Source: Capitulum mitella (taxonomy: Eukaryota > Arthropoda > Thecostraca > Pollicipedomorpha > Pollicipedidae). Taken from it: a stretch of DNA of 64,000 nt. Positions 20,201 through 45,972 of this stretch are shown piece after piece. Position numbers and translations under genes: made by a program. The notes under the pieces were generated by a model that worked only from the letters and a program-made list of their open reading frames with translations, ran no database searches and was not told the origin of the DNA. The stretch spans positions 26,229,398 to 26,293,397 of the forward strand of contig CP099841.1 of NCBI GenBank assembly GCA_030062745.1, given 5' to 3'. Each line of letters begins with the position of its first letter. Within the stretch, counting starts at the first letter, position 1.

Positions 20201-23200
20201 TCCGACCGTCGCGGCAGGCTGGCTGATATGCGTTTGATGGCAAGACGGGTTGTCATCATTTTGTCTTTTTATCATCTTATCCTATCTTATCATCTGATAT
20301 TTCTTATATCTTATTATCTTATATGTTATCATTTTCTAGCACCTTATATATATACATGTATATATATATATATATGCATATATCTTATAACACCTTAAAG
20401 GCTTATCATCAAGGCGGTAAATTATCAGAAGGTAAACCAGGGACTTCGTGTCTAGCTTTGTGCTAAAAGTTGCCCCTGTGGCGTAGTCTGAAGTTGAAAC
20501 GTTCAAAATGGGACGCTTGTGCTATTTTTGTTTCGTATGCCACTAATGCCATGTAACGTAATTCGTCTAACAGACAGAGATTGGGTAAGAGGAAATGTAA
20601 AACGCGGAGCGTATATGTAATTGGGAATCACGACAAGGTCGGCCTTTGTCGATAACGCGTCCCGCCTACCAGTCCTGACGTTATCTGTTATCTCGGCGGT
20701 GCCCGCTCATCCCCTCGCTGACCTGATAAGTACTGCAGCGCTGGGCCGCGGGACAGGTGTGGTGGCGGCACCTGGGGCGCTCGTTCTATCGGAACAGTAG
20801 CCGCCGAGCAGGCAGACACGAGGCGCGTGGTGCAAGGCGCAGTGGTGGCGGGCTCGCTGGGGCGCCAGGCTGGGCAGGCGGAGCGGGCGCGACTCGCGGC
20901 AGGTGCAGCGCGGCGGTGTCCGGACAGGGCGCCGCGGGCGGAGGCGGCGTTCGCCGGTCAGGCGGAGCGTCGGCGGCCGTCGAGCGCGGCAGGCTGAGCG
21001 GGCTGGCGCCGCGCCTGCCGCGCCTGGGGAGCGTCGTCCGACCGGAGCGGCCGCTGACGGAACGGCGGCATGTGGAACCGCAGGCGCAGCTCCGACCGGG
21101 CGCAGGCGGCGCGGGCGGCCTACGGCGCCCGGAACCGCTCCCACTCGGTGGACGAGCTGCGCGAGCGGCCGCTGCTGGAGCCGGCCGGCTCGCTGGAGCA
21201 CCTCGGCAGCGGCCGTCGGTCGGCCGACCAGGGCTTCCTGCAGTACATCGCCGGCTTCCTGACGAGTGATGAGAGTCCGCCGGAAAGGTTACCGACCCGC
21301 CGACAGCGCTGGCGCGGGGGTGCGCTGTGGCGGGGATGCCGTGGTCGAGCGTGGGCGTCTTGGGAAATGGGAGCCGCGCCACGGGTGGAAAAGGGTGTCT
21401 TGTACGCGGGTGAAACCAGACTCCCGATAACGCTGAAATTTAACATTGTGCCTTCTGCGGATGCATGCGAAGATATAACGTAAAGCATACGTGGCAGCTA
21501 TTTGTTATGCTGTCCTTTCAAAACAGTCGTATTGTCATCGGCGTAGAGCGCCGGCTGCTTTAGAAGGCGGACGGTGTACGGGGACACATTGCGAGGCTTG
21601 CTGCCGGAGCTCTGGTATTTCTCTGATGCGGCCTTTGAGACGCTGAATAACACATTACTACGGTTCCAAAGGCAGAAAGGAGGACGCGGTTTTCGTACGT
21701 TATCCCGTAACGCACGTCACATTCATCCGTTCAGACGTCCTCGCAAATATCTGGGCTAGAGCAAGGCACGAACTAATGTCTTCTTAACCCTTATTATAGT
21801 GGGCAGTGCACTTGCTGCATGTTTTCGTTGTGCACGCCTTGTAGAATGTTGAATTAGTGGCTCAATTTCACCGTCAGTTTTGGTTTTAGTTCTGTTTCAC
21901 GCTTGCATGCTTTTCGTTGGCATTCTGTTTGCTTGCGCCACCAGATCGATCAGTCCTTCGTCAGCGTTTTTTGTTCCGGCGACGATTTCTGCTTGGCTTA
22001 TGTCACATTTCTGCGAACTGTCATCTGATGCAAACCCGTGACACACCTGTGTTGGCCATTGGCTGGTGACGTTTGTCGTTCCAGGAGCTGCAGCATTGTA
22101 AACGGCCTGGAGCGAGCGGTGCTAGACATCTACGACCCGTTTCGCAGCTCTCAGCTGGATCTCACCAAGAGTCTCCATCAGGTCCGTACTGTACTGGCCG
22201 ACGCTTGTGCTCAACACCGCATACGGAAACGCCCTTCGGTCGTGATCATTGGTTGATACGGAGTTTGGATGGTTTGAGGAACAGAGCAACGCTGATGGAT
22301 GTCAGGGCAGTGGGGAAATGTATGCTAGGAGTGGGGATATGATCGGGAATAGTCTGCCGTGGCCCGTTGCACAACTGCTGCGTTAACTTGCGCGCTGTCT
22401 GGAGGTTGCATTGGCATCAATACTTGTTGCATTGACTCAGAACGCCCTTATTGTCGGCGGCGGCCAGTGAATCCTTCTAAAGCCTATGCTGCACCGTGGA
22501 TGAGTCACCAATGACGTCAGCTTGACGACAAGCACTTCTGGTGGGATCGTGGTTTAACAGTAATATGCGTGGGTCGACAGCACATGTCTTTTCGAATCTG
22601 CTCTGTAATACCGCTCGCGGCAGCGAACGACGTGCAAATTTTAACGCCGTAGCCTGCTTCTGCATCACAGAGGAGTCCGCCGCATGATAAATGCCGTGGC
22701 GTCACATGATTGCATCACACAGACCTTAGTCACGACGACGATCGTTGCAGTCAAGGCCAGCCTGCGGAATATGCTGTGTTGAGGCACATGAGTTCTGGAG
22801 GTGTTCAGTTAGATAAACACTGAAAATCCATCGCACGAAGTTCATTGCGTTGCAGCATGAATGATTCTTTATACCAGAGGATGGATCTTCATCATGAGGC
22901 AATTTGTATTACGAGTAGTTTAAGGGAAGTACGGCTATCTATGTGACAATGTCAAAAATGTGCTTGCCACGGTATTATCTTTCGGAACATATACGTACCT
23001 GGCGTGAGGAGCAGTGACGAAAAATCGTACAATGCTCCAGACGTGGTGTCCTTTTGATCTCAGAAAATTATTTCAGTGATACTTAACAATATTATATGTC
23101 ATCCCTCACAATCTCGTCTTACAGACCCCACCCTCTGACTCCGATCCCAACAGCCTGACTCATCTCACAGTCACGTCTCCTCCCCGACCCCGCTTCCGCC

Positions 23201-26200
23201 CTCTGACTTCGCCCATAGGCCCCGGAACGGGGGGGGGTGCACGGGGGCTCTGTGTCCCTTTTAACTGGCGAAAGTTAACATGAACCCTTTGACGTTGCAT
23301 GGAAAGAAATGGTTCTAAAAGTAGCCGGTGCCCCCCTTGCCGGAAGACGTTCCGTCCCTAGTGACTCCGTCCTCCACGTCTGACGTCATTCGACTCCCTT
23401 CACAGCCACGTCTTCCGGGCTCGGCCCTTCGCCTCTGACTCTGCCCTCTTATTCCACCCTCTGAGTCTGACCCCGGCCGACTCGCTTTACAGTCACGTCT
23501 CCCAGACCCCTTCCTCCACCCTCCGACTGCTCCCTCTGACTCTGACTCCGCCCGGCCGCCTCGGCAGGTGGCTCGCGAGGGCGACTCGGAGGCGATGCAC
23601 CACCTACTGGAGACGCTGATGAACCACACCCAGCGGCTGCAGCGGCGACTGAACCAGCTGGACGCCGACCGGCTCTCGCCGCTCCACTACGCCGCCCGCT
23701 ACAACCGGCTCGAGACGGTGCGCATGCTGATCAAGTACGGCGCGCGTGTCAACATCCGTGGCGAGGACGGCCTGACGCCGCTCCACTTCGCGGCCAGGTG
23801 AGCGCCGCCTCGGCCGCCGCCGTACAGGTGGCGTCGGACGCCACAGACGCCGGGCTGGTGCTGGCAACGTGAGGTAGTTGTCCGTTGGTTCACACTGAGA
23901 GCTTGGGGGTTTTCTGAGGTTGGAATGGACCCCTTGGTTCGGCTCCGCCTTACTGTCGGGCCGTTTTTTTGCCGAGCTGCAGCGAAGTATTTGACGAGCG
24001 TTTTCCATTTTCTTGCCGTTCTCGTAACACTGGCGGAACGAGTCCAACGCAAGGCGTAACTCCGTCTTGACGCCCCATTTGTCACGGCACTAAAACTGCG
24101 CCGCAGCCGCCAGTATCGGCTTGAGTTTTACAGACATTCACCGACACGTGGCGTGGTAAACGTTCCAGCTGATCCGCGTCATTTATCGACCGTTGTGGCC
24201 CCTGCCGTTCATTAAAGGACAATACACTGGGACAGTGCGGGGGGGGGGGTCGTGGACTGAGTCGCACGAGGCCGCTCCAGGTCTCGCCATCCATATTCCC
24301 GGATTTCGGACAGTTGAACTTTATCCTGTTGGTAACGCGATTGTCAATGGCCGGCATCGACGCGATCAGTACTTGAGAGCATGACATTGGACAAAAAATA
24401 AGTGAGGTCCTTAAGCTTCAAAGGGACCGCTTCATATGCACAGTTGTACTGCGGACTTATAGTCTATGTGATGTTGGACTGTTCGTGAAAGCTGGCCTTA
24501 CCCATGCTTTCTATTCATCTTTTCCGCACCCAAAACCAAAATGCGGCTGGAAACGTTTCCATCCACAAACAACGTTCGGTTAGAAACGTATCCTGAATTG
24601 CAGGTGGAACGTGTTTGGTCCCGTCCAACGTTTGCGTTTGGTTTATTACGTGCACCAACTTAGAAATGGACCGCAGCAATTCCTAAAACAAGTATCAGAT
24701 GAGTCCCTTCCCTCCACCACGGGACGAGTGTCCAGGAGACGCTGCGTTCCTTTCCCCCTCCCTCGGTCGCTGAGAACTCAGCGCCGACCGTCTGCTGCAG
24801 GTACCGGCGGGTGCTGAACTCGTCCGCGTCCGGCTCCGACGAGGAGCACGAGCCGCCGCCGGCAGACGACGAGGAGACCGTCATCCAGATCCTGGTGGCC
24901 CACGGCGCGGACGTCAACGCCAAGGACGTGTACGGCCTGACGCCGTTGCACTACGCCGCCATGCGAGGCAACGACTTGGCCGCTCATCAGCTGCTCAAGT
25001 GCCCCAACGTCAACGCCGAGGTACCGAGTCCGCCCGCTTGAAGAGGGAGAGGCTCGGAGTTGAAATGTTCCAGGAGCGGAACTTTTTTCTTGGGGGGGGG
25101 GGGTCGGCGCACACATCATTTTGAACTCTGTCCTTGTCATACAACATCACAGTTGTAATGATAACTTTTCGTGAATCGGGGATGCATTTGCATTGGGTTT
25201 GTAACGATGGCTATGAGTTTGTTGAGAATGATGATGATAGTAATGGTTCTGAAATTGTAATGATTAGTGTTCAAACCGCGTGGTATGTAGGAAGATTTTG
25301 GTGTTCTATCCGTGAGATGACTCAAGAGAACATGCCTAATTTTAAGTACCATCATGTTTTTGAATGAGCTCAATCGTCACTTCCAAAGCCCCATGGCCAA
25401 CCCAGCATCCCCCTCCCCCGCCTTCATATCCAGGGAGTTTCTAGTCCTAGCGCTCACAGCCCACAGTTAATGCCCATCCAAACCTACGCCTCCGTCGTCC
25501 TCTAGTCCCCCGCCGTGACCTAACGCTGGTCCGCGCAGGCCAAGGACAAGCAGCAGATGACGCCGCTGCACATGGCGGCCACCTACGGCTACCCGACGGT
25601 GACGCGCCTGCTGCTGGAGCTGTACGTGCCACTGCGCTGCGTGGACGAAGAGCAGCAGACTCCGCTGCACAGTGCCGCCAAGGGCGGCCACGACCGCATC
25701 GTCAGCATGCTGCTTCAGGCCAGCACCGAGGTCTCGGGGGAGGAGGCTACCAAGCTGGTCAGTAGGGAGGACGCCAGCGGAGGACGGGTCATTACGGGTC
25801 ATTACGGGACTGGCACGATGACAATAATTCGCCGTTAGTTGGCAAGGTTTGGTCAAGCATTTGACTGTTTCCGTTGGAGATTGGGCTAACGTTCCTGTCT
25901 TACGTGACGTTTAACGTACGGCACTGGTATTTTTAACATTATTTTTTACCTTGGTAAGATTTTCGAAGTCTGCTTTTCCTTCAGAGCGATATGTTTGTAT
26001 TCTTCCACTGAAACCGGTTTTGCTGGTGCTGCTCTCCATATATGGAAGGTATGTCGAGTTTGTCCTGAGAGATAACAATCAACGATCCTCCACGTAATCC
26101 AGTCAGCTGACTAACTAGCAGGCCAGCCGTCTCCACCAACCCGTGTCCCTCCGTGCTGCGCCCAGTGTGTCTGAGCCTCCTGCCGTCTGTGTCTGATGTG

Positions 26201-29200
26201 TCTGAGCTCCGTGCCCATCTGTTGTGTCTGGTGTGTCTGGGGCTCTTACCTGTCTGTTTCCGATCCCCCTGTCCGTCTGTGTCTCATCTCCCTTCCCGTG
26301 CGTGCCTGATGTGTGTGAACTCCCTGTCCGCCCGTGTCTGATTCGTGAGAGCTCCCTGAGTTCCTTCGCGTGAGCTGCCTGACCAGCCGGCCGGGCCGCC
26401 GGCAGATGGTGGCCGACAGGGACCAGAAGCTGAACACGCCGCTGCACCTGGCCGTCGACAGCGGCAGCATGACCACCGTCGAGTTGCTGCTGGAGGCCGG
26501 CGCCGACGTCAACGTCTGCAACGACACGGGCGACACGCCGCTGCATGGCGCCGTCGTCAGCGGCCAGCTGGGCATCGTGCAGCTGCTGGTCCGGGTACGC
26601 CGAGGTGTCTGGTGGGCTTGGCAGGCCTGGCGGGTCAGCTGTGGCGGGTCTGGTGGGTCAGATGTCCGGCGGATCTGTCAGGCGTGACAGGTCGGCTGTC
26701 TGTCGGGTTTGCCGGGTCTGACAGGTCAGCTGCCTGCCGGATTTGTCGGGCCTGACGGTTATAGCGGGTCCAGGTGTTGGACTGGGCTTGTGGAACAGTC
26801 TGGCTGGCCTTCTGCCGGGCGCACTGTGTTTTATGGTATTGTATCGTACTAACATGAAAAGATCAGTCGGCGAAACACTGTTCCTAGTCTCAATTCAGAC
26901 ACCAAATAGTTCAGACATTGGTTCCAAAAGGAGACGCATGCATTCACATCCGATAAAAGACCGCAGTCAAGCGGCCAAATATAAACATAAAAGATACACT
27001 CGACCGGGAAGACCTAAACATCAGTCATCTTGCAGAGCGTTTTTTTTCACTAGCACACGTCTTTTTTGGTTCGGTCCTTAAATGCGTCAGATCCAAATCT
27101 CGTAAACGTTGGGACGAAGATTCGAAATTGGGCTGACTGGGGGGTAGATGACTGGGCGGTGGGGTATGTGTTTTTGCATGCTGTTTTTTGTCTTTGTCTG
27201 CCTTTCTGTGTAGTTTTCTCTTCGTTTCTCTGTTAGTAAGTCCAATCAAATGCCGGTTCCCATCAGCTCTGAGAGGCAGCTTGTGCTGCCTGGTCTGTCT
27301 TGTGACACATGACACATGACATATGTCTTGTCGAATGCGAACGGAGTGCATCTGGTCATTGTTTCTTCCCGGGCAGGACAGACCTGCCTGTTCAGATTCG
27401 GACTGCTGCTGGGGGCTGCTCACACGACTGGCGCTGTTAATTAGGTCTTGCCTGAGTGGTGGCTAGTCGTGTTACCGCCCAGCCACCTTGCGTCTGCTGT
27501 TTTGCCACGCCTCCATTTGCGCCAACAAACTGGCTATTTGTTCGTCCACTGGCACGGCGTGTGGTCCATTCGCAGCATCACTCCGCCATCAACGTGCAGA
27601 ATTTCCAACACCAGACTCCGCTTCATCGTGCCGCCATGTTCAACCACGTCGACATCATTGAGTACCTGCTGAGCAGGTAGGCAGTGCCTCTCAAAGGGCA
27701 GACGGTCGTTCAGGCGCCTACACGGCCGGTGTTTTTTTAAGGCTATGTATTTATATTTATATTATTTGTATTAACTACACCGGTGTTTTTTAGGGTCTCT
27801 GCAAGGCTCTTGGATCTGCGCACCGTCCCGTTCAGGGCCTGATATTGAATAACGAGGTCTTGCCCTGTGTGTCATCCAAAGAGCAAGTCGACTTTATAAG
27901 GACAGTTGAAGAACACTCCTAACGTCTCATCCTCTCGGGGTCGCAGTTTCGTTCCATGCACCGGCTGTGACTGTCTGACGACGCAGTATGACGACGACGA
28001 CGACGGAGATCGATTCATCACGTTCTTGCCTCGCGTATACCCTTAACCCCCCCCCCCTCGCTGCGTCGTCGACAGGAGGGCGAACATCGAGCGGCTGGAC
28101 GCGGACAACTTCACGCCTCTGCTGCTGGCGGCGGCGGCCGGCCACTCGCGGGCCGTGCAGACGCTGCTGGATAACGGAGCCGACATATCGGCCGTCGACA
28201 AGTACGACAAGACGGCCATCTACTGGTGCGCCCAGGAGAACAACATCGGGGCGCTGGAGGTGCGAACTGCCAGATGGTCGGACCTGGGCCGAGCGAACGT
28301 TGGAGAAACGAGATGGGTGGTTTCATTCGTGCGCTGCCTGGCGCGCGATTCGGCTGCCCACTGCGCGCTAAATACCAAGCTAATGCCGCTGCGTTTAGTA
28401 AGAAACCATGGCCATTGGCTTTGATATGTGATGGGAACTTATTCCTTGGGCTGATGGAAAGAGCGTATTTGGGTACGTTAACTTTAGTAAGGGCAGGGCA
28501 CTGCTGTGGGGGGGGGTTAAAAATTACCTTCACACCACAAAATACATCTGTTATTGTCAAAACCAAACACTGTCTCATCTGTTCTCGGGCGTTTGTCCGC
28601 TGCCGCCCGCTCCCCTCCTCGCGGCACCAGCCGGCTCTTCCCACAGCACCAGCTGATCTCAGCACCAGCCGGCCCCCCCCAGGACCAGCTGATCTCAGCA
28701 CCAGCCGACCCTCCCAGGACCAGCTGATCTCAGCACCAGCCGACCCTCCCAGGACCAGCTGACCCTCCCAGCACCAGCCGACTCTTCCCACAGCACCAGC
28801 TGATCTCAGCACCAGCCGACCCTCCCAGGACCAGCTGACCCTCCCAGCACCAGCCGACTCTCCCCACAGCACCAGTTGATCTCAGCACCAGTCCCCCCCC
28901 CCCCCCAGGACCAGCTGACCCTCCCGTGCCCCGCAGGTGCTGCTGCGACACCGGCTGGCGCCCTCTCTGGTGGACCGCAGTGACAAGTACGACAACTCGC
29001 CGCTGCACGTCGCCTGTCGTAACGGCTACCTGGCCGTGGCGCGCGCTCTGCTCGACGTCGGCAGCGGCATCGACAACAAGAACGAGGACGAGCAGACGCC
29101 GCTGCACGTGGCCGCCAAATACGGCCGCACGGCGTGAGTGGCCCCTGTTCTGGGCGGCAGGCGGACCCATACTGGGTTTGCGTGATGGGAGAGCGTATTG

Positions 29201-32200
29201 TGGTACGTTAACTCTTGTAAGGGCAGGCCACTGCTGTGGGGCAAACATTACCTTTGCACCGGGCCACGCAATGTCAAATGTTACACAAACATTCCGGCCA
29301 ATCCCCAGGGGGGCAAATGGCGTGCCTAGCGGCCAGTATTGACGGGGCAAATTGGCTCGTGCGTGGTGAGTAAGCGCAGATCCAGCGGATCGAAATGTTG
29401 TGTACTGGGAAGTTCACGCCCATTGGAGAGGAGCCAATGAGTGTAGTGGTGAGGTCAGGGGATCGATACCATCTATTGATAGGAAGATCGATGCGAGATG
29501 GTTGGTAGTCGTAAAATGGTCATGCAGAAGCCACCAGCTGTTGAGTTATGATCATCTTACGCTTTACCTGGACGGTACTTTATGTTCGGCATGATGTCAC
29601 AGACATTTTAGCGTTCTTTTCTGGGGCTTTTGCCTGGACCGTGCCGTCTTGAGCATTTATATTAGTATCTGTGTTTTATCGCGTTTTAAATGCTCCTGAT
29701 GAGGATGTTTCACTATTTACAGTGCTCCTGTTTGGTGGAATTTAGTACCAGTGCAGTCACTGTGAGCACGACAAAAATTAGTATTATGGTAACCCACGAG
29801 GTTATTTCTCCTCTTGCTGTATTCCTACAAGTATTGCTAAAATGCTTCAGTAATTCTGCGTGCCAGTCCAAAAACACCTGTACACCCGGCACCATGGCAG
29901 TGTCTGTGCCGCCGACGCATGGCCCGGTCGTCGCCGCAGGGTCGTCAAGGACCTGCTGCGGCGGGACAAGCTCATCATCACCGACCAGGACGAGCAGCAG
30001 AACACGGCACTGCACGTGGCCGCCCTGGAGGGCCACCAGCTGGTGGTGGAGGCGCTCATCGAGGCAGGCGCGGCCGTGGTGGCGCGCAACGCCCACCTTT
30101 GGACGCCGCTCGACTGCGCCTCGGCGCGCGGCTGGAAGAACACAGTCGAGGTTTGTCCCGGCTCGGTGGGAGGGGGAGGGGGGTGGCGCGGAGCTGTGCC
30201 TGGGACGGTTGTTGTTGATGGAGAATGAGGTTGGGGCGGCGGCGACGGCTGGAGCTTGTCAGTTGAGGCAGATTCATTGTTCGTGGCTCTGTGCGGTTCG
30301 TACTAAACTGGGCACACGATTGAAGCACTGCAGGCAGTGTTACACCCAGGTAGACTGAGGGCGGAGGGACGGCAAAGACGAAACCTACCGCAATACTAAA
30401 TGTCATAACCATGAGTGAGCAGCGCTGTTTAAAGTAGTCGTTTATCACGGCAGATTCTGCTGGCGAACGACTCTCCGGTGGACCCGGTCGACAAGTCGAA
30501 GACGACGCCGCTGCACCTGGCGGCGCGCGAGGGCCACCGTTCGGTTGTGGAGGTGCTGTTGGCGTCCGGCGCGCGGCTCAGCGCCTGCGACAGCGCCGGC
30601 AAGAACGCCCTCGAGCTGGCCATCCTGCACGGAAAGAGGTGCGCCGAGCCGGCCGGCGGAGGGACGCCTGTGCGTGGACCCGGGCCGTGGGGGGAGGGGG
30701 CACAGAGGGAAGGCAGGACGGTGGCTGATGCTACTTCTGTGACGCTGAGGTAATGTCGGAGGTAAAGATCGGACGCCGGTGACTCTGCAGCGAAAGCGTT
30801 CTCATTCCTGACGTTATTTGCTCTGTTTGCTCTGTAAGCAGTTCTTTGGAATATGTGACGGGACAAAACTCACTTGCGGCAAGTTGTTTTGCGGACAATT
30901 TGCCTTAGCTTTATCACTTACCTAACGACTGAGACTACTTCGCCAGCTTGGAAACCCTAGCCTCAGAGCCGTTATTCGTCGGAGGCGTTCCACGCCATTT
31001 GTCGAGATCCATTTTTGTAGATGGCATGGCTGTGGGCTGGTCAGCCGACTGCTCCGGCCTGATTTCGCTCGTTGCTTGGTGCCTCGTTACCCGGTCTCTG
31101 GCTGCCGCAGGGAAGTTGTGTCGGCTATCCTGAAGTCGGAGCAGTGGCAGGACGCCATGGACAACGAGAGCGTGTCGGCCCGTGGCGCTCGCGTCACGCC
31201 CATCCGGATGCTCATCAAGAAGTACCCGGACCTGGCCGGCGAGGTGTTCAACATGTGCACCAGGACCAACGGTCTGGAGGTGGGTAACAACATTAGCACC
31301 GGGACCATTGGTCTGGAGGTGGGTAACAAGACCATGACCGACGGTCTGGAGGTGTGTAACAACATGAGCACTAGTACCAGGTCTGGAGCTGGTCAGCAGC
31401 GCCATGGGAAAAGGGTTTTGATAGGTGATGTGTTCGTGATCTATGAGTCTTGGAAATGGGCACAAGTTTAGTATTCAAAGGGAGATGAAAATGCAGCGAC
31501 GCGCATAGTCAGTGTAGGTAAATGTGATGATATGTCAGCATTCCCTATACCGCAACTGCGCCATGTTCTAACGCCATGCTGTTCCCCGTGGTGGTTGAAT
31601 TAATGTTCGCTTGTTTTCATCTTCCAGCTGCACGACAAAAACCTGGCCGTTACTTTCAACTTCGAGTACATCGACGATACGTACTGCAGTTTGATGCACG
31701 ACGAAGACCTGGAGGTTACAATGAAGGAGGAATCCGGCCTCCCAGGTCTGTTTAGACCTCGCGAGTTTTCTGCCTAATTCTGGCCGCTTAAATCAAAACA
31801 CGTAAAGAAAACATCGGCTGGCTTAAGAAAAGAGTTTTGAAGCTTGCGAGGGATAAACACATTGTTTGTAAATCAATATTCTGTCGTCTCAGTACCGCAC
31901 GATGGTGTGTGAATTGAGAACGCCTCATATAACACGCAGATATTTTAAAAGAGTCGATAGAAGATTGGGCTGTTATTGGAAAGATAATCGACCTTTTATT
32001 GTATCACGCAGGGACGACATCGCCGTCTAAGGTTGTCCTGTTCGCACCATTCGTCGTTTTGGATGAAACTCGTTACATTCACGTAAAAACAGTAACGTGC
32101 TTATAAGCCACTTCGAACGCCTTCATGTAGTAATAAAAGTTTCCCCGCCGGACTGTGCGCGGTGGAAATTCGCAGTTGACCAGTGGCGTCGTGCGGGTGT

Positions 32201-35200
32201 CGGTAATCATCAGCCGGTTTCAGGCGATGCCGTTTCCGACCATTCGGCGTACACCGACGACGGCAGGGTGAAGGACACGGCCCGCCCGTACACCCGGGAC
32301 TCCTCAATTCGGAAGAACAACCACCCGCTCATGATCATGGTTCGAGCCAAACGAGTTGTAAGTAACTCTGGCTGCTGCCGGGAACACTCTGAGACCTGAC
32401 GAAGGGAGCTTCGTGGTGCAGTGTACGAGGTGTAAGTGTTGACCGTGATGTCATATGTGATGTTACCCGGGTTCTCAGACGGGGAGGGACTAGTTGTGGG
32501 AAAAGACGCTTCTTCCGCCCATGGGAATTTCACGTGTTTGACACAGTCAAATTGTTGTGTTATCGGCCGAGCGCCTTTGCACTACATTCTTCCCCACCTG
32601 CTCCCTTTCATTGTGAACGAGTTACGTTGTATTTCCATTACTTCCTGACACTTTTTGACGACAGTCGATGATGCCAAGTTTTCCGGAAAGATGAAGCCCT
32701 TGAGTGTCTTGAGTTGCTGGCTGTAGCGCACGTCCGAGCCATTGGCAATATTCCAGGCACTGCTAGGTCACCCGCTGTGCATCACGCTCCTGCATCTGAA
32801 GTGGCACAAGCTAGCCCGGTACCTCTATTACACCAACCTGTTTCTCTTCATCACCTTCCTCACCTTCTTGACTGGTTACATGGTCACCACGCCACCACCC
32901 GACGCGTTCTCCAACCGGAAACCGTAAGTGTTGAAATGTTGCGCGTTTTCCGCTCGTTTTTGAACCAAACAGACCGACTGACTGAGACTTTCATACCGAC
33001 CACTGAAGTGACAGTATGGAATGTTTCCTGATGGCGTACACCTATGCACGCATTTCATTAGAAGTTTCAAGCTGCGACGCAAATACTGCGAGCAAACTCG
33101 TTTGCTAGATACCGAAGACTGGGGCGAGCCGAACCTGCTTTGTCAGGAACTGGCAGAACCGTACTCTCAAAACTGAGCTTCTGATTGCGCAGACTGGCCA
33201 CTACGTCTGCTGACCGGCCCCGATCATCACCGGCAGGTCCACAGAAGGTCCCTCGGAAAACGTTGACGTCAACAAAACGTTCGTCCCGTGCGAGCACATC
33301 AAGGTGCTGTTCAGCGTACGCCAGAGTGCGTTCGCCGACCTGGCTCGCTGGGTAATCACGGTGCTGGCCTGCCTGCAGCTGGTGAAGGAGCTCTTCCAGG
33401 TGTTCCAGGTGAGAGGCGGCGCAGCGCCGTGCGGTTTGAGGGCGCGGTCCTGGGGCAGGGGCTGGAACGCCGTGGAGGGAAAGGAGGGCCCAACACGGCT
33501 GATACCACTTCGGACAGGGGTTGGGTGTGCCATCATTGGTGTGGTCGCTGGTACCCTGTCACGGACGTGGCTGTGTCGGAGCTGCCAAGCGCTCCGTTTG
33601 CGTGTGTCAGAGGTGTTATCTTTTCTGCCTGGATGATGAAGGGGTTTTTATGGTCGGAAAGAAATACTGCTGTGCTGTTTGCGTTCCCGATACCATGCAC
33701 CATTTGTATAAAATGTGACTATGTAGTTCAAAGGCTGTTGGCAGCTAGATACGAATGTGCCTTGTCAGACTGGTCAGTTACTTCACGCACGATAATATTT
33801 AATTATCACGGATTGACGGATCTTTGTAAATGCCTGTGAATGGTGGCCAATTTGTCCAGATGATAGTCGACATTGGCAGTCTAACCACAGGTATCTGCTC
33901 GTTAATCTCAGTATTTGCATTTACTGGTCGACACGGTAAGCCTCCTGAATCGAGTGGAGTGCAGCTTCGGGTGGCTTTGTACATGACAAGGACTTGGTGT
34001 GACAGGAGCTGCCGCTTATCAGAACGATGCCTGCCCCTGAGCTCATCTGCCACGCGTGTTGCATAGTGAGAATGCTTCCGCTGGATTACAGGAGAGGGTG
34101 CAACATATTTTGCTACTTTTATGAACTTACTTCCCAGAAGCCCTGGGCATGGTTAGATTGGTCCTAACCGTGCGCTGTTTTTACGCCATTTAGTTTGCGA
34201 AACAAGCAACGTTTTCGTCATTTTGAGCTAACGTATGTGAAACCAGCCCTGGCATCCGTATCGACGGTACTCTCAGACCGCGTTGGTGCAAAACACGTAG
34301 TTCCACCTACCTCCATGCACGTAGTGAAGCAGAGGAACAGTGACCCCTAGAAGCAATGGTAATGCCATCGGGATTTCGCGTCGTGTGTGGAAAGCAACGA
34401 TTGACGTGGGTAGAATGGGTAGAATGGGTAGAAGCGTACTCCGCGACGTTAGTTTGCATAGCGACCTGCAAGCCGTGAGGACATGAAGGGCGACGGAGGT
34501 TTCCGGGGGCTTTCAAGGGCTCCTTCCTCCCAGAGACTTCTGGATCCCCGATTTCCAGTGCCACCAGCGAACAAAGGAAGAGAGCTACAGAAGCCGTCGT
34601 AAAGGATCACTTTAGTATTTTAGTACCGCGTCGATCCTGATTTGTGTGGCATAAATGCTAAATGAGATGTCGCAGTGAAGGCTGGGAATTTCCCACTCAG
34701 TGCCGTAGTTGTGACATATGCCGTCTTCATTGCGGTTTACTCGCCGGCTTAGAGAAATGCGTGGACCATATGATGGGAGCCGCTGCAAGTCGCCTTTGCC
34801 TCCTTGTTTAGACGCGCGCTCTTATCGGATATCATAATTATATTCGGCGATTTATTTAGTTATTTCATTGTTTCGTATTGCTCTGCTCTGCTGGGAAAAA
34901 TTGGGTTACGTTGTGCCGAGAAATAAAGTGGCAATCTCAGATGCTGATTTTCAAGCAACAGATCCATTCAGTGAATAATTTCGTTACTGATTTGCACCGG
35001 AGATGATGGCAATCGTAAAACACAAGGGTTGATTTTTCAAGGCAATATTCACATTACTGCCGTGATAATGCTTTTATCCTTTATTTTACAACACAAGTGC
35101 GTTGTTTTCCGGAGTGCCGTGTGCTGTTCCATTGTGTGTCTGACTGAGCTACCACCGTGACTGAAAGTCGAGGTAGTCCTTCCGGGCGGCATGGAATCGC

Positions 35201-38200
35201 AACCGGAATAAATTGCACCGAGGAAGCTGTATAGACCTCTTGGCGCCTTGTGGCATATTGTACGCTAACGGCCACGTCGTAACCTCCTATGTCTTGACCT
35301 TACAGCCGTACTGCAAGCTGCAGGTAACCGATCCAATCAGTCAGTGTCACGGACAAATATCTCGATGTTGCACCGTGCTGGTCTCGTCAAATTGTTGGAA
35401 CTTGTACTGGGTCACTCACATCCTCCTCCTCGACGGCACGGTGTCCAGTGAGCGCTATTGTTTCACGACTCGCGGCTTTATGGTCGTTGTAATCGGGGCG
35501 CAAAGGCTCGAGTGCGTGGAAGGATGGGATTCCGCCATCGCAATGTTTTGAAGGGTGTTTATCTTGGTCGGCGCTAATCCACTCTCTGTAGTTTTCGCCC
35601 AGCTTCCCCTTTACTCTTTTTAAGCAGGGTTCGTCCCACGCTGGGGTGGTCTGTTGAGAATCTTCTCATTTCCGTACACCAGGCACCAAAAGCTGACAAA
35701 TATTCGCAGTTGTCTTACACGCTATTCGCAGCAGTATGTGCACCCCGCCCGTATGTAATAGCCTGCCAAGAAGTTTGTGAATCAGTTAAACCATGTTCTG
35801 GGCAGTACTGGCGAATAATGTGTTTGTCGAAGTGTGTTTCACGCTTTGCCCAGGCAAGTGTTGCTGGGTGTTGCTCTCCCATTCGCTTTGCTTCCACATT
35901 TTTGTTTTGTCTGGTCAGACGCTTCGTACATGCTCACCAGCACCCGCCGCAAAGCTAATTTCCACTTGAACGGCTTCCATTTTATCACTGGGCTGACATT
36001 ATTCACGTTCTCGCTATTGCATATCTGCGCTTCTCAAGAGAGGACCGCCGAGCGTCAGCGTGCAGCCCGCAGTGCCGGTCGCCACTACGTGTTCGGATTT
36101 CCAGAGATTTACTCCGCGATTTGATGATGTGATGACGGCAGCCATTGAAGCAGTGGATCTCTGCTGCCTAGGGGTGGAGCTTTGGGGGTTTGGGAGGATC
36201 CAGACGCCGGTGGAAAGTAATGGGCCCTTCTAATATTTGGGAGATTGAACTTCGGGGCAATGGTTCACTTCTACACTGAAGCAGTTGAATTTCAGAATAC
36301 CGTCTCGACGTTTAACATCGGGGCAGTGGTTCATTTCTAAACTGAAGCACTTGAAGGCTACAGGCCGTCTCGACAGCCGACCCTTCCATTCTTCTCCGGC
36401 CTCCCGAAAACCCCTCCCATGCCTGGACGCCCCTGAACCCCGGCCGGTAACCTGTGTGACCGCAACCAGGCGCGGTGGCACTATTTCGGCTGGAACAACA
36501 TGCTCGAGTGGACGTGCTACATCTGCGCCCTGCTGCTGGTCTGGGACTTCGACCACTGTTCTCGTGCCACCGGCATTCGACAGGTGAGTCGAGGAGTCTC
36601 CTGCCCTTGGGGCTCGCCCATCCGGCGCGCACCGGGCAGGTCACGTGATACGCAGCAGCTCTCGCTACAAGTGACCTCTATTCGGGGTGGAGCCCACCAA
36701 GGTGCTGTTGCGTACCTTTCCTGTGGATCGGTTTAGAACTTGTTGAGTGGTTTTAAATGGAGAGTTCCATTGTCGACCTGCGTTCATGGCGCACTCGGCA
36801 TTGTTAAATTCTGCTGTGTTAGCCACTCAGCATTCTAAACTCAGTGCTTATCCGTTGACTTCAGAACAGTTTGGAGATCTGTTTTTAGTGCAAGCGTATG
36901 GAGTAGCTTTGAGTGCAGACAATGTCTTGCTGTCTCTGCGCACAGAAAACAGACGAATAGTGAAATGCCAGGTCACGAAACGACCATTGTTTTGCTGGAA
37001 ATGCTTTGTACCAGAACCTCGGGTATTCGCCTGCAAGGCACCTCACTGGATCTCTCGTTTAGGTGTGGCAGTGGAAGATCGGGGCCGTGGCCGTTTTCCT
37101 GGCGTGGATGAACCTGCTGCTCTTCATTCGCAAGTTCCCGGTGTTCGGCATCTACGTCGTCATGTTTACCGACGTCCTGTCCACGTTCAGCAAGTTCTTT
37201 GTGGTCTTTTTCCTGTTCATCACCGCCTTTGCGATCAGCTTTTTCGTTCTCCTGCAGAATCAGGTGATAATGATCGTGCTGTAAGTTTCTGAGACGTTGC
37301 AGTGTGGGATGAGCGGTCTTGATTCCTATGCCGTCTATGCCGTTATTGGCATACCTTTGAGCTTTCCCTTGCACTGGTGCCAAGCGTCATCGTAACAATT
37401 TCCGTTTTAGGTTAGATTTCTGTTATGATGGTTGCTGAATTTCGCATTTGACATGTCCTCAAAAATATTTTAAATGCTACGGGGTTTTTAAGCGGCGGTA
37501 TGTGATGCCGTGATGTCACTTCGCAGCAAATCTTGCATTTTGCTGCGTTATATCGTTTCCGTCGCTAAATGCTTGGACTTTTTACGACTTTGGACTTTTA
37601 TGTTGGACTATTATACATTAACTTTGGACATTTATATTCAGGGACATATCGTGTATTGATGTAACGAATGTCCGTACTGACTGGCCTTTTTGTCATGTAG
37701 GTGGCCTTCTCGACTGTCGGCAAGTCTTTATTGAAAACTTCTGTGATGATGATCGGGGAGTTCGATTACACAAGCATCTTCGACGGGGATGAAAATGTCC
37801 CATTTTCCGGCGTTACGTACGTGTTGTTCGTCGCCTTCTTGATCCTGATGTCCATCATCATCATGAATCTGCTGGTGAGTGATGTTTAATCTGTGTCTTA
37901 AGTTATCAGTAAATTTCCAGTTAAACCTTGTTAGATACTTCACGGTATACATTTAATGGGAAGCCGGACGGCATCTGACTCCTGCCCACAGCGCCCATGA
38001 AGCAAATTTTTTGCGCAGTCTGCATGATAAACGGCTCTTTTTCGTACAGTTCTTCTAAGTAGCTGGTACAACGATGAAAAACGTGACACTTTCGACAAGT
38101 TAAACGCCATTCCCGGTAGTGGGCTGAATCGGCCCCCCTCGGTTTTTTTGTTCGCCAATTCCAGGCTTTTTGACGCGGCTTTACGACACTTGCTGACTTC

Positions 38201-40191
38201 TCCTAGGTATTCTTTCTACGTGCCGTGACAAGATTTCATAATTCTATTTTGCTCAGGGGCGGAGCCAGGAAACGTTTTTGGGAGGCACCTCAGGCCATTT
38301 TTGGCCATGTTGAGGGTAAAAAGGAAAATGTCTGCCCAAAACAGCGTTTTTAAGGTAGAACTTAAAACGTTGTATGGACTTATATCAAAATAGTTGGGAA
38401 ACGTGCAGATACAATTTTGTTCATGTTAGGTCACTTAACAAGGTCAAGCCAAGGTCAAAGACAACATATGTTTTTTAGCAATAATTTCGGCGCTATTTCT
38501 CCAAATGCCACACCTGGAATGTGTATGACGTAGGAGGGTGCCCCCTACTTGTGTATCAAGTTTCAGCTTGATATCAGGTCGGGTCACGGAGTTATGACCT
38601 AAAATGTCATATGCAAAATGTCCCATATATCACAATAGCCGTAAAATGGAATTTTTGAAATAGAGTGAATTCATATGATTGAAAAAATTGCAGATAGTAT
38701 TAAATGCACACGAGATCATTCTAAGTGACTCCAAGGTCACTGGAGGCCATTTTAGGTCAAAGGTCACAAGTTGATCTGAAGAATGTGTGACCATGACAGT
38801 TCCCTCTTTTTCATGTCCCTGGCATCGCTTATGCTAACATTATACAAACATTGTAATGCGATTTGCACTTCTTCTTCTGCTAGCATGACTAGCAGAAGCC
38901 AAGAAAGTGTTTTTACCTTTTTTGTTCTTTCAATCGTTGAAAAAACTAATCCTCCTTTTTTGAAACCCTGTGAACGCCCAAGAATTTTCCCAAAATTTCA
39001 GATGTGTGTACCATTGGTAAAAGTCCTATCCATAATCTCTCGATTCATGCCAGTTTCATCGAAAGCGGTCCAAAAACATGGGAGTTATAAGAAGTCCAAA
39101 AATACCCCTAATATTAACATTTTTGCCCCCTGTATCCGTCGCTTTGAAGATTTTGAAAATTTCTTTCTTTTGAAAATGTAGTTTACGTCTTGGCGAATCG
39201 ATTGCCGTTTGTTGCGACGAAATCGGATTTGTAGTTCTCGAGATCTCAGGGGGGGGGGCCAAATCGCCACCCCCCCTGCCGGGAATCGACCATATTGTCT
39301 AGCCCTCCGGGAATAGGGTTCACTAATAACGTGTCAGTGACTCGAGAACCTGCATGCGTATCATCTCCGTCGTTTTGCCCTCCAGGTGGGCTTGGCCGTC
39401 GACGACATCAAGGCCGTGCAGGACCAGGCGTCGCTGAAGCGGCTGGCGATGACGGTACAGCTGGTGCTGGACGTGGAGGCCGTCGTGCCGGACTTCATCA
39501 TCCGCAAGCTGACCGTCCGCAGCGTGAAGGTGTACCCGAACCGGCGCAAGAAGAACTTCGTCGCCAAGCTGTGGCGCGGCGACTTTGCCATGAAGGAGGT
39601 GGCGGAGAAAATGATACAGGATGCGGAAAAGGTTGGTACACCGCCCGGCTGCGTCCAAGCTGGCTGTTGTGTCCACCGAACGATACCATCATGACGGCGA
39701 GACGTGAAACCAGAGTAGGTGTTGCCGTTAAGGAAATGAGCGAAATGGACAATGTCTCAAAATTGTCAATGAGACTTCCTCTTGCTTACGCTTTCTCTCG
39801 TTTTCATTGTTGATCAGCAGATACTAACCTACTGTTCATTTTCTACCACTCTCTAATACATACAAAAAAGTCGTCGCTGGCCTGGAGCGTCCTGCTCCAA
39901 TGGTCTACCCTGCGTTTAACCTCTGAAGACTTCTGACCAAACGACTTCTGATCCTGCAGTCTGCCGTCTGTGACGTCTTCGTACCCCGACCTGCTCTCCG
40001 TGACCCGTATTCTCTGACGTCAGATCGAGGCAGACCAGGCGCAGGAGAGCACCATGCACCAGCTGCGCTCTCTGAAGCAGGAAATGCGGCTGCTGGCCGA
40101 GCAGGTGCAGACGATCCGCGCCATGTCCGAGGCGCTCATCAAGAAGAACGACATCGACTGGGAGGCGGAAGACCAGTACCAGTTCAACTGA
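11189..40191 (+). CDS. TRPA1: TRPA1 ankyrin-repeat cation channel (whole gene)
   Basis: TRPA1 channels are tetrameric, Ca-permeable plasma-membrane channels opened by electrophilic chemicals and, in many invertebrates, by temperature. Joined exons give 1,237 residues by the proximal start (21 coding exons) or 1,223 by the distal start (22 exons). Every junction keeps frame and uses GT/AG. In order: variable N-terminus, about 17 ankyrin repeats (TPLHxAA motifs, residues 105-740), a linker, S1-S6 with a pore reading [12 protein letters not shown], the S6/TRP region [18 protein letters not shown], and a charged helical tail. Length and architecture fit TRPA1, not the shorter painless or pyrexia type. 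Alternative promoters and tandem donors at exon 12 suggest isoform control. I am very sure of the family, less so of the first exons. Confidence 0.93.
13412..13760 (-). repeat. Interspersed repeat, copy 1 (minus orientation)
   Basis: The reverse complement of this block matches 38935-39258. Shared blocks are CCCTGTGAACGCC, CTCTCGATTCATGCCAGTT, AATCGATTGCCGTTTGTTGC and GAGATCTCAGGGGGGGG, in the same order with similar spacing. It ends in a poly-C/G tract. Neither copy shows coding potential, so it is likely a non-autonomous element. Confidence 0.75.
13789..13809. repeat. Left terminal inverted repeat of the pogo-like element
   Basis: It starts GGGGAGAGTGGGG directly after TA and runs into the first GGGGTAAAGCGC motif (13798-13809). 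Further copies of that motif lie at 13976-13989 (inverted), 13994-14007 and 14016-14029. Confidence 0.9.
14674..16483 (-). pseudogene. Broken pogo/Tigger-type transposase
   Basis: The transposase would bind the element ends and cut them. Reading on the minus strand: a psq-type helix-turn-helix ([19 protein letters not shown]), a second CENPB-like DNA-binding region, the DDE catalytic core and a Cys-rich C-terminal finger (CFVCGMLF and later [12 protein letters not shown]). Catalytic Asp residues appear at WNADETG, ITDGH and MQPLDASIY. Four lesions break it: one-base losses near 16028 and near 15938, an in-frame TAG at 15643-15645 just after ITDGH, and a TAG at 14836-14838 at a likely Trp codon in the finger. 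No in-frame ATG precedes the helix-turn-helix, so the N-terminus is also missing or sits in another exon. Confidence 0.88.
17346..17366. repeat. Right terminal inverted repeat of the pogo-like element
   Basis: It is the reverse complement of the left end, with one mismatch, and is followed by TA. Related motif copies lie at 16893-16906, 16916-16930, 16934-16947 and 17327-17339. Confidence 0.9.
18245..18302. repeat. Palindrome with nested inverted flanks
   Basis: AACAGCCATTAATGGCTGTT (18266-18285) is a perfect 20-bp palindrome. The outer segments GATATCGT and ACGATATC are also inverted, which extends the symmetry imperfectly to about 58 bp. Confidence 0.8.
18940..19262. repeat. Minisatellite running up to a TRPA1 acceptor
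   Basis: Units of the type CCCCGTGGCCGCTGTCTGTG recur in diverged form. Two units starting at 18963 and 19025 are nearly identical over a 62-bp period. The array ends about 15 bp before the 3' splice site at 19276. Confidence 0.8.
19277..19418 (+). CDS. TRPA1: TRPA1 exon 2a (distal isoform only)
   Basis: The acceptor CCGGCAG precedes a two-base start, completing a Val codon with the last base of exon 1a. It encodes an acidic segment with [20 protein letters not shown] and leaves AG before the donor GTGGGC. That phase matches exon 2 at 22085. There is no ATG in the open frame upstream, so it must be spliced to something. The polypyrimidine tract is weak. Confidence 0.55.
20341..20390. repeat. 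TA microsatellite
   Basis: TATATATACATG and TATATATATATATATGCATATA make up an imperfect dinucleotide run within an ATCTTAT-rich stretch. Confidence 0.85.
20700..21069 (+). promoter_or_regulatory. CpG-rich region, likely proximal TRPA1 promoter
   Basis: The composition switches from AT-rich to CpG-dense just before the ATG at 21070, and an in-frame TGA lies 15 bases before that ATG. This is what a transcription start region with a short leader would look like. No TATA element was seen. Confidence 0.5.
21070..21287 (+). CDS. TRPA1: TRPA1 exon 1b (proximal start)
   Basis: It begins [19 protein letters not shown], preceded by an in-frame stop, so the start is well defined. It encodes 72 codons, basic then acidic, ending in DESPPE plus AG before the donor GTTACC. 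The phase fits exon 2 exactly. It replaces exons 1a and 2a. The donor is unusual at its third base but acceptable. Confidence 0.75.
22085..22181 (+). CDS. TRPA1: TRPA1 exon 2 (first shared exon)
   Basis: It encodes [19 protein letters not shown] and on to DLTKSLHQ, ending in phase 0. Both N-terminal variants join here with the same split Arg codon. The end forms the first helix of ankyrin repeat 1. Confidence 0.85.
23100..23560. repeat. Pyrimidine-rich minisatellite before TRPA1 exon 3
   Basis: Diverged units built on CCCTCTGACTCCG and ACAGTCACGTCTCC repeat through this interval and stop at the 3' splice site at 23567. Confidence 0.75.
23568..23797 (+). CDS. TRPA1: TRPA1 exon 3: ankyrin repeats 1-2
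   Basis: The first codon is GTG, read as Val after the acceptor GGCAG. It contains [19 protein letters not shown] and [10 protein letters not shown], ending in phase 2 at GTGAGC. Confidence 0.95.
24801..25020 (+). CDS. TRPA1: TRPA1 exon 4: acidic insert and ankyrin repeats 3-4
   Basis: It continues [12 protein letters not shown], then an acidic, Pro-rich insert ([13 protein letters not shown]) that splits an ankyrin repeat, then [20 protein letters not shown]. The insert is probably a surface loop and looks disordered. It ends in phase 0 at GTACCG. Confidence 0.93.
25539..25757 (+). CDS. TRPA1: TRPA1 exon 5: ankyrin repeats 5-6
   Basis: It encodes [20 protein letters not shown] and [15 protein letters not shown], ending EEATKL before GTCAGT. 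A GAG/GTCTCG donor 27 bases upstream would also keep frame; I chose the better consensus. Confidence 0.88.
26150..26370. repeat. TGTGTCTG-type minisatellite before TRPA1 exon 6
   Basis: Diverged units around TGTGTCTGAGCTCC and CTGTCCGTCTGTG repeat up to about 35 bp before the acceptor at 26405. Confidence 0.65.
26406..26594 (+). CDS. TRPA1: TRPA1 exon 6: ankyrin repeats 6-8
   Basis: It encodes [20 protein letters not shown] and [20 protein letters not shown], in phase 0 at both ends (acceptor GGCAG, donor GTACGC). Confidence 0.94.
26600..26765. repeat. GGTCTGxxGGGTCAG minisatellite in a TRPA1 intron
   Basis: Short diverged units with GGGTCTGACAGGTCAGCTG repeat directly after the exon 6 donor. 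Confidence 0.65.
27576..27676 (+). CDS. TRPA1: TRPA1 exon 7: ankyrin repeat 9
   Basis: It encodes [20 protein letters not shown] and DIIEYLLS, ending in phase 2 at GTAGGC. Confidence 0.93.
28076..28259 (+). CDS. TRPA1: TRPA1 exon 8: ankyrin repeats 10-11
   Basis: It encodes [20 protein letters not shown] and [18 protein letters not shown], a TRPA1-specific stretch. Two acceptors three bases apart (GACAG and GACAGGAG) would give one more or one fewer Arg. Confidence 0.94.
28451..28540. repeat. Interspersed repeat pair, copy 1
   Basis: It matches 29171-29265, with shared AGAGCGTATT, GGTACGTTAACT, GTAAGGGCAGG, CACTGCTGTGGGG and ATTACCTT in the same order. Copies lie in consecutive TRPA1 introns. 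Confidence 0.8.
28625..28925. repeat. CAGCACCAGC minisatellite before TRPA1 exon 9
   Basis: Units alternate CTCAGCACCAGCCGACCCTC and CCAGGACCAGCTGAT, many exactly repeated, with C-runs of 8 to 14 bases. The array ends about 11 bp before the acceptor at 28936. Confidence 0.92.
28937..29133 (+). CDS. TRPA1: TRPA1 exon 9: ankyrin repeats 11-13
   Basis: It encodes [34 protein letters not shown] and [16 protein letters not shown]. It ends with two bases over, at GTGAGT. Confidence 0.94.
29171..29265. repeat. Interspersed repeat pair, copy 2
   Basis: It is the partner of 28451-28540 in the same orientation, about 80% identical by eye. Confidence 0.8.
29940..30150 (+). CDS. TRPA1: TRPA1 exon 10: ankyrin repeats 13-15
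   Basis: It completes an Ala codon, then encodes [35 protein letters not shown] and [13 protein letters not shown]. It ends in phase 0 at GTTTGT. Confidence 0.94.
30454..30638 (+). CDS. TRPA1: TRPA1 exon 11: ankyrin repeats 15-17
   Basis: It encodes [20 protein letters not shown] and [19 protein letters not shown], ending in phase 2 at GTGCGC. Confidence 0.93.
31111..31279 (+). CDS. TRPA1: TRPA1 exon 12: end of ankyrin domain and linker
   Basis: It encodes [20 protein letters not shown] and [20 protein letters not shown], then CTRTNGLE. The donor GTGGGT at 31280 is the first of three near-copies, listed separately. Confidence 0.92.
31271..31390 (+). repeat. Tandem duplication of an exon end with its donor site
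   Basis: GGTCTGGAGGTGGGTAAC at 31271 recurs at 31310, and as GGTCTGGAGGTGTGTAAC at 31343, with a decayed copy near 31378. Spacings of 39 and 33 bases are multiples of three, and the frame stays open across all copies. Each copy therefore brings a potential GT donor in the same phase. Confidence 0.85.
31628..31745 (+). CDS. TRPA1: TRPA1 exon 13: linker before S1
   Basis: It encodes [20 protein letters not shown] and an acidic end, leaving one base at GTCTGT. This linker region carries the reactive cysteines in studied TRPA1 channels. Cys residues are present here, but I cannot assign them one to one. Confidence 0.88.
32224..32357 (+). CDS. TRPA1: TRPA1 exon 14: pre-S1 helix
   Basis: It encodes [20 protein letters not shown] and [14 protein letters not shown], a TRPA1 hallmark just before S1. 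It ends in phase 0 at GTAAGT. Confidence 0.92.
32757..32923 (+). CDS. TRPA1: TRPA1 exon 15: membrane segment S1
   Basis: It encodes [20 protein letters not shown], followed by the hydrophobic S1 ([19 protein letters not shown]) and a Pro-rich loop. It ends in phase 2 at GTAAGT. Confidence 0.93.
33237..33408 (+). CDS. TRPA1: TRPA1 exon 16: S1-S2 loop and S2
   Basis: It encodes the extracellular loop with NKTFVPCEH (a possible N-glycosylation site at NKT) and then S2, [19 protein letters not shown]. The donor is GTGAGA. An in-frame GT nine bases upstream is a weaker alternative. Confidence 0.92.
33409..36469 (+). other. Longest shared TRPA1 intron, nothing else seen
   Basis: Three kilobases separate S2 from S3. 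I looked for duplicated or mutually exclusive exons encoding S2 or S3 and found none. Confidence 0.5.
36470..36583 (+). CDS. TRPA1: TRPA1 exon 17: membrane segment S3
   Basis: It encodes [20 protein letters not shown] and LLLVWDFDH, in phase 0 at both ends (donor GTGAGT). Confidence 0.93.
37063..37263 (+). CDS. TRPA1: TRPA1 exon 18: S4, S4-S5 linker and S5
   Basis: It encodes [20 protein letters not shown], then the strongly conserved [20 protein letters not shown] and the hydrophobic S5 ending FFVLLQNQ. Phase 0 at both ends. Confidence 0.95.
37701..37874 (+). CDS. TRPA1: TRPA1 exon 19: pore and S6
   Basis: It encodes the pore helix and filter ([18 protein letters not shown]), where the acidic residue after Gly sits at the selectivity filter, then S6 ([12 protein letters not shown]). 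Phase 0 at both ends. Confidence 0.95.
37875..39385 (+). other. TRPA1 intron filled by repeat DNA
   Basis: No exon is visible. About 1 kb of it is an interspersed repeat (38254-39258) with many AGGTCA half-sites, including an exact AGGTCA-A-AGGTCA at 38754-38766. Confidence 0.55.
38254..39258 (+). repeat. Interspersed repeat, copy 2 (plus orientation)
   Basis: The left end CAGGGGCGGAGCCAGG resembles a hAT-type terminus. The right part (38935-39258) matches 13760-13412 on the minus strand and ends in a G-tract. No coding potential is seen. I could not find a matching right-hand terminus, so the true limits are uncertain. Confidence 0.6.
39386..39631 (+). CDS. TRPA1: TRPA1 exon 20: TRP-like helix and C-terminal domain
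   Basis: It encodes [20 protein letters not shown], the post-S6 helix, then [19 protein letters not shown] and [10 protein letters not shown], typical of TRPA1. Phase 0 at both ends. Confidence 0.95.
40024..40191 (+). CDS. TRPA1: TRPA1 exon 21: C-terminal coiled coil and stop
   Basis: It encodes an amphipathic heptad-like helix ([20 protein letters not shown]), which in TRPA1 forms the central tetramer coiled coil, then an acidic end DQYQFN and TGA. Confidence 0.93.
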   Translation: MEADQAQESTMHQLRSLKQEMRLLAEQVQTIRAMSEALIKKNDIDWEAEDQYQFN

Positions 40192-45300: not shown

Positions 45301-45972
45301 CCGCGCCGTCAGCCGCTCGTGCTCGCTGATGGCGAGCCCGTCGAACTCCTGCAGCCGCGGCAGCAGCTGCACGCAGAAGAGCCGGAAGTTGCAGAGCCGC
45401 GTGCACGGCGCCGGCCGGTACATCGGGTCCTGCAGGTGGAGGGCGGTGAGCCGCGGCAGGCGGGTCAAGGCAGGCAGGTCCGTCAGCGGCAGCGGGTTGC
45501 CGCTCAGGTTGAGCCACTCGAGGCTGTCGCCCCAGTCAACGGCCGACAGGCGGCTGATGTTGTTCTGCGCCAGGTTGAGCTGCCGCAGCGCCGGCAGGTA
45601 GCGCAGGCCGGCCACCTCGCCGATGCTGTTGTTGTCCAGCCAGAGGGTGTTGATGGCGGTGCAGCGGTTCAGGCCATCGATGACCTCGATCCGGTTGGAG
45701 TAAAGGAAGAGCTTCTCGAGCTTCTCGGCATTGTCCAGGTGGCTGATCTGGCGCAGGCCGCACTCGACCACCCACAGCTCCTTCAGCTGCGGCAGCGTCT
45801 CCATGCCGCGCAGGCTGGTCAGCTCCGGCTGGCCGACGATCGTCAGCTTCGTCATATGCGGGTACCGGGCCGACAGCGTCACGAATTCCGGCACCTCTCC
45901 GAAAAAGAATTCGAGACTCTTGCAGTGTGGCATTGTGCGGAGAAGGCTACGTTGTTTAGCCGCCACTGACAT
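42301..45972 (-). CDS. LRRC9: LRRC9, leucine-rich repeat-containing protein
   Basis: One frame of 1,223 codons runs without interruption from an ATG at 45972, with TAG as the codon immediately before it, to TAG at 42303-42301. The N-terminal third has SDS22-like repeats (LEKLFLYSNRIEVIDGL, INTLWLDNNSIGEVAGL), then a helical non-LRR middle (about residues 235-560) and two more LRR blocks, ending with LQVLDGSPV. Order, spacing and the N-terminal motif LTIVGQPELTSLRGMETLPQ fit LRRC9, which from memory is about 1,450 residues in human. Its role is poorly known; it is mainly retained in species with motile cilia. The lack of introns is odd, because vertebrate LRRC9 is split into many exons. The gene converges on TRPA1. 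Confidence 0.9.
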   Translation of the reverse strand: MSVAAKQRSLLRTMPHCKSLEFFFGEVPEFVTLSARYPHMTKLTIVGQPELTSLRGMETLPQLKELWVVECGLRQISHLDNAEKLEKLFLYSNRIEVIDGLNRCTAINTLWLDNNSIGEVAGLRYLPALRQLNLAQNNISRLSAVDWGDSLEWLNLSGNPLPLTDLPALTRLPRLTALHLQDPMYRPAPCTRLCNFRLFCVQLLPRLQEFDGLAISEHERLTARQHLSSRLVYYRALCRHVQARYQQQVGHVWQDWDTFLAAMGRRLRLLHAKAGQVAAAAARAAAPDAAEPPASEETLDAFRQAICRRMDCVRSVVRGQLAHSSERLDMLAKRRRLVEALLELEYRTVGNIRFEEMNVGDGSPGGRVAALSRYLGRERIALSATKKVNVLAVYKVNNRFLENMMVQWSGANRQVKVLDRFVTAEKGKDIDWILEACKGCITTRVRVTVDLDTVDENSATSPVTSLRDYLGYFREAILVQVLALPQGLTVPTKVPSWLDINSEELVNRRLILAPKFVLLYTIGDSYNERSLACLSSASLDDDLLNSVCLPMEEEQPPAQPGTGTVLKPSDKEGTRVLLSGKGISLVQGSQNSARVVELDLSFNELRTTEFLKNLLSLTILDLSYNYITSVKGMPKLPSLSTLNVSWNRLTHLQETLRHLSTVCPQLKSLNIVSNPWKVPEERQRRLVAVYLPGLQELQGQTLSYPDPAVPTFKKLECPMEIGDISLPKISTKAEVPTKLDPRKLTAVCLDGQMLRNLKCVKDIPFLQKLSLNDNLLCSLQGLEGFPHLEYLSADHNELVDFDGLAPSSLKLRSLSARHNAIAGLDSLAAISVPLLELLDVSGNPVTSLRGLERLQSLTELYATAGRLERLGALSPLTACRRLQALDVSGNAVCSEPNYRRFALYKCAPLQILDGGCVSAEERADAVNALSGLLSLDRLQEAVAPQALRSLTQLDLPACAIREIDLPIDCLQHVVSLSLEDNEIGLLSGLQQLRQLRVLNLTNNAVRRLRERAEPPPPAGTVCFPALRVLILAGNGLVQLGPLQLGAMRALHTLFLQDNQIKALDAVAACASLEVLVADRNQLQSLPAEALPSLANLRALHVEGNRLRRLPTVWPPQLRALYLANNKLSEPLELTRLSGRLELRRVSLYKNPLTRNVKWQAILCASQPTLQVLDGSPVADVSGSRPGLDGDGDSADEEAVVAALRGYRSVWWRPQKTSVWTFRG

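Follow-up and report, generated by a model that had tools for sequence, protein, structure and literature searches.

Does a short tandem repeat that straddles the end of an exon give a gene several usable 5' splice sites, or only copies of one? This question is raised by exon 12 of a TRPA family gene in the barnacle Capitulum mitella, which lies in the window analysed here (the whole stretch of 64,000 nucleotides). The putative extra donors might make the channel protein longer in a fraction of its transcripts. If they are used, replication slippage would have led in one step to variant proteins of a sensory channel. If they are idle, the minisatellite has multiplied strong donors without evident effect, and these idle donors would be a natural test of how the cell chooses among near-identical 5' splice sites.

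The gene and its relatives

The model of the gene consists of 20 coding exons on the + strand from 21070 to 39631, with consistent phases and no stop over 1198 residues. The exon boundaries were set manually, guided by GT and AG dinucleotides, phase and homology, and the open chain is thus partly by construction. The chain covers the gene as far as 39631. The introns flanking exon 12 are 472 and 348 nt long. The features around the exon end are given in Table 1.

Table 1. Features at the end of exon 12, in positions of the window
Feature	Position	Strand	Remarks
Coding exon 12 (E10)	31111..31279	+	Linker after the ankyrin repeats; from the phase-consistent, hand-built 20-exon chain; probable end at 31279
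Unit 0	31241..31276	+	Exonic; encodes 12 residues including a cysteine
Unit 1	31277..31315	+	39 bp; GAG/GTGGGT at the start, donor 1 at 31280
Unit 2	31316..31348	+	33 bp; GAG/GTGGGT at the start, donor 2 at 31319
Unit 3	31349..31385	+	37 bp; GAG/GTGTGT at the start, donor 3 at 31352; frame broken beyond
Degenerate partial unit (GAGCTGGTCAGC...)	31386..31406	+	Unit boundary without GT
Intron	31280..31627	+	348 nt with donor 1, 309 nt with donor 2, 276 nt with donor 3
Next exon	31628..31745	+	More of the linker; acceptor ttccag/CTG at 31628

Pfam ankyrin families, N-terminal in the protein, and the ion-transport domain PF00520 were detected in the gene. With a query built on provisional exon joins, the best PDB match was Drosophila TRPA1 (7e-45), followed by human TRPA1 and then TRPV. 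Together these results place the gene in the TRPA family. The initial annotation had called the gene TRPA1, and this identity was not supported, as two other loci of the assembly, C4 and C5, were nearer to TRPA1 in the pore pieces. With the Drosophila TRPA1 query, the pore pieces of C4 and C5 showed 58–80% identity versus 38–45% for the window gene; with the human query the gap was smaller (45–60% versus 43–47%). The closer pore matches of C4 and C5 therefore suggest that the window gene is probably a divergent TRPA paralogue and not the TRPA1 orthologue. The linker piece did not separate the loci, with 22% identity to human for the window gene and 21–24% for C4 and C5 (E values of 1.1–2.6). 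Single-exon paralogues, whose matches no intron interrupts, gave more bits in one piece (up to 105, at 38% identity, for L006). Both C4 and C5 (L023 5557 and L025 3594) are TRPA1-like, lie on separate contigs and have a similar exon end at this place.

A repeat array across the exon end

The array occupies 31241–31385 on the + strand in units of 36, 39, 33 and 37 bp, beginning within coding exon 12 and extending into the intron. Tandem Repeats Finder reported it at 31249–31392 with a period of 39, 3.9 copies, 73% matches and 12% indels. The longest exact repeat within 31109–31627 was 20 nt, versus a maximum of 13 in 1000 first-order Markov sequences. When the exon ends of the gene were compared with their own introns, the end of exon 12 scored 40, above all 200 shuffles, and was the only one of 20 to stand out; the remaining 19 scored 21 or less, with the boundaries of X2 and E16 being off in this test. 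Over the 6 unit pairs, the identity was 82–93% of the aligned bases.

The word GGTCTGGAG stands before a GT at 31271, 31310 and 31343. The word occurs a fourth time at 31380, where CTGGTC comes next and the boundary is without GT. The repeat unit holds the exon end together with the intron start, which indicates a tandem genomic duplication across the splice boundary. The proposal that a splice boundary had been copied was borne out, as unit 0 is exonic, the later units follow donor 1, and both the exon end and the donor are duplicated. In the assembly searched (477 Mb in 16 contigs), a 181-base query of the array matched its own locus alone, very common words being skipped. At C4 and C5, the region around the corresponding junction held no direct repeats of at least 18 bases.

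Other arrays, with periods ranging from 19 to 76 bp, are present in introns of the same gene. One, at 26656–26756, has 3 copies of 34 bp and lies a little 3' of the donor at 26595. Another, at 28617–28925, has about 4 copies of 76 bp, finishes just 5' of the acceptor at 28937, and carries acceptor-like CCTCCCAG words in its units.

Three similar donors and the choice among them

The donors at 31280 (GTGGGT), 31319 (GTGGGT) and 31352 (GTGTGT) lie at offsets of +0, +39 and +72, all in frame as the initial annotation had stated, and the first two are identical over nine bases. With hand-chosen boundaries, the chained protein has 1198, 1211 or 1222 residues with donor 1, 2 or 3, each stop-free. 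The predicted inserts, 13 residues with donor 2 and 24 (13 + 11) with donor 3, were also confirmed, as was their place in the linker between the ankyrin repeats and S1. The earlier point that no stop intervenes is true but is weak evidence, as 9 of 19 other exon frames stay open for at least 24 codons. The open frame was likewise rejected as a sign of coding, since the 63 codons past donor 1 are exceeded at X1 (65) and E14 (75).

On the gene-specific donor matrix, each of the three donors scored 9.62, the fifth best value of the 20 in the gene, although the matrix is small and built from this gene. On it the copied donors match the original, of which, being copies, they are not independent. 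Sites reaching 9.62 numbered 27 in 128,000 nt, counting both strands. With an earlier matrix, in which some exon boundaries were off, the three donors ranked at the top of 38 GT sites between 31200 and 31627. The predicted U1 pairing was −11.6 kcal/mol for donors 1 and 2 and −7.9 kcal/mol for donor 3, the last being barely stronger than that of the strongest background site nearby, a GT at 31512 (−7.8). A CTG/GTCAGC site at 31392 scored 8.19 on the matrix with U1 pairing of −3.9 kcal/mol, and its use would shift the frame. Unit 0 itself holds an exonic donor at 31244 (GAG/GTGTTC, in frame at −36), which was weak, with a matrix score of 4.96, and was discarded. Judged by sequence, exon 12 thus has at least two same-frame donors of adequate strength. 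In three folding windows, we saw no RNA structure masking one of the donors; the mean unpaired probability from −3 to +6 was 0.51–0.53 for donor 1, 0.50–0.51 for donor 2 and 0.42–0.44 for donor 3.

The length of the encoded loop distinguishes the donors. The spacing between the conserved C/H and NF/DL positions is 20 residues with donor 1. All four comparators, namely the human TRPA1 protein, the paralogue L004 (a single-exon gene) and the two loci C4 and C5, have this spacing too, the end points being picked from the alignment and C4 and C5 being joined by hand across one intron. With donor 2 it would be 33 residues, and with donor 3 it would be 44. As the loop length of the family is kept, donor 1 is likely the main site and 31279 the likely ordinary exon end. 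In a PDB search with provisional exon joins, the donor-1 query had a match at 0.00033 outside the linker, and the donor-2 isoform had none at 0.001; as the match did not involve the linker, we give this difference no weight.

Donor 2 or 3 could nevertheless be the main site. Constitutive splicing from donor 2 or 3 (exon end at 31318 or 31351), with a longer channel loop in this lineage, would agree with the similarity of the three donors and with intron definition, which is described in PMC9225289 as favouring the donor closest to the acceptor and would favour donor 3 here. However, the loop is as long as in the four comparators with donor 1 alone, and we consider this explanation unlikely. 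According to human data in the same source, donors of like strength are chosen upstream when the flanking introns are long and downstream when they are short. Applied by analogy to introns of 472 and 348 nt, this rule favours donor 1, and it may not hold here. In C4 and in C5 alike, a phase-0 intron lies 7 codons 3' of the position in the window gene, and no shared ancestral intron position emerged.

Origin of the copies and their possible use

Changes among the units give little reason to think that the longer forms are maintained. The cysteine encoded in unit 0 aligns with human C641, as counted along an alignment whose query had provisional joins. Human TRPA1 C641 presumably takes part in electrophile sensing. 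The matching codon is Ser in units 1 and 3 and a gap in unit 2 by hand alignment, and therefore the copies have not kept the Cys. Two other cysteines of TRPA1, C621 and C665, are named in PMC10073219. In the same hand alignment of the units, the 6 unit pairs gave 26 codon pairs that differ, 24 of them non-synonymous, and random single changes would be expected to be synonymous in 23%; these counts are small and the 6 unit comparisons are not independent. The length steps among the first three units (+3 and −6) fit selection for frame, but two events are too few. With mostly non-synonymous copies and a unit 3 that breaks the frame, we see no evidence that longer forms have been selected. The suggestion that the repeat is a way to make channel variants was accordingly not supported, given the 20-residue loop in 4 of 4 comparators and copies without protein-level constraint.

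These observations bear on a regulated switch, in which the three donors would give two longer channel forms whose linkers gain 13 or 24 residues and whose gating differs, as it does among the exon 10 forms of insect TRPA1. The donors are alike in matrix score and hold the frame, and the insertion falls where the TRPA1 of Drosophila and Anopheles swaps mutually exclusive exons in the region between the ankyrin repeats and the transmembrane segments, which changes the electrophile response (PMC11471635, PMC10073219). The insect TrpA1 exons 10a/10b are thus alike in placing splice variation there, but they are mutually exclusive exons of about 36 residues in TRPA1 proper, whereas the barnacle case concerns a choice of donor in a paralogue. 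We regard the shared linker as a resemblance of place, not as functional evidence. Because the copies lack a synonymous bias, unit 3 breaks the frame, and the matching junction of C4 and C5 is without a direct repeat of at least 18 bases, a regulated switch is quite improbable.

It may also be imagined that the junction-straddling coding minisatellite is a ladder of equal in-frame donors, whose copy number sets the length of the gating linker at the same place where insects independently evolved mutually exclusive exons; we hold this to be very improbable. An artefact of assembly or haplotype as the source of the repeat is hardly credible, since assembly error is frequent in tandem arrays but these copies have diverged rather than being identical, and the query matches one place in the assembly.

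The reading that we prefer, with a probability of about 0.72, is that a duplication across the exon–intron boundary left redundant donors, with donor 1 as the main site and at most minor use of the others. From the repeat, the frame, the donor scores and the loop length that were observed, we infer the mechanism, the order of events and the donor usage as follows. A segment of 33–39 bp, holding the end of exon 12 and the start of the intron, would have been copied in head-to-tail order some three times. Two GAGGTG words, one in the exon at 31241 and one at the junction at 31277, probably allowed this by slippage or by unequal exchange. Each time, the exon end and the GAG/GT donor would have been copied, giving similar in-frame donors at the three offsets. 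Donor 1 (31279/31280) is most likely still the main site, and donors 2 and 3, if used at all, would insert their residues shortly after the linker Cys, probably in a minority of transcripts. In evolutionary terms the array is thus likely a by-product; minor use of the extra donors is plausible and may give minor isoforms, and regulated use is hypothetical.

A comparable event is described in potato RdRp, where a tandem duplication over the intron 1/exon 2 boundary led to intron gain (PMC4974935). Both are direct duplications that run across a splice boundary and take splice signals with them, but the potato duplication made a new intron, whereas here the copied exon end and donor would provide alternative donors. 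Neighbouring in-frame 5' splice sites, the choice of which adds a small number of residues, are also known from c-KIT GNNK+/− (PMC12818652) and from tandem donors (PMC2279118). In c-KIT the gain is 4 residues, and the tandem donors surveyed are 3, 6 and 9 nt apart, whereas the unit here is 33–39 bp; donor use is demonstrated for those systems, and use of the extra barnacle donors is putative. Among the titles and abstract openings of the matches listed for splice-site duplication and boundary repeats, we found no donors multiplied by a repeat. The titles and abstract openings of the barnacle TRPA1 literature likewise held no such donor array, and the available text of PMC6497305 reports a TRPA1 transcript of Balanus improvisus without mentioning isoforms.

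Two further features of the window were observed. The exon after the array has an internal repeat, in which 31629–31653 and 31695–31719 (LHDKNLAVT and MHDEDLEVT) lie 66 bp apart. On the − strand, 42301–45972 is an open frame of 1223 codons that has a leucine-rich-repeat look by eye.
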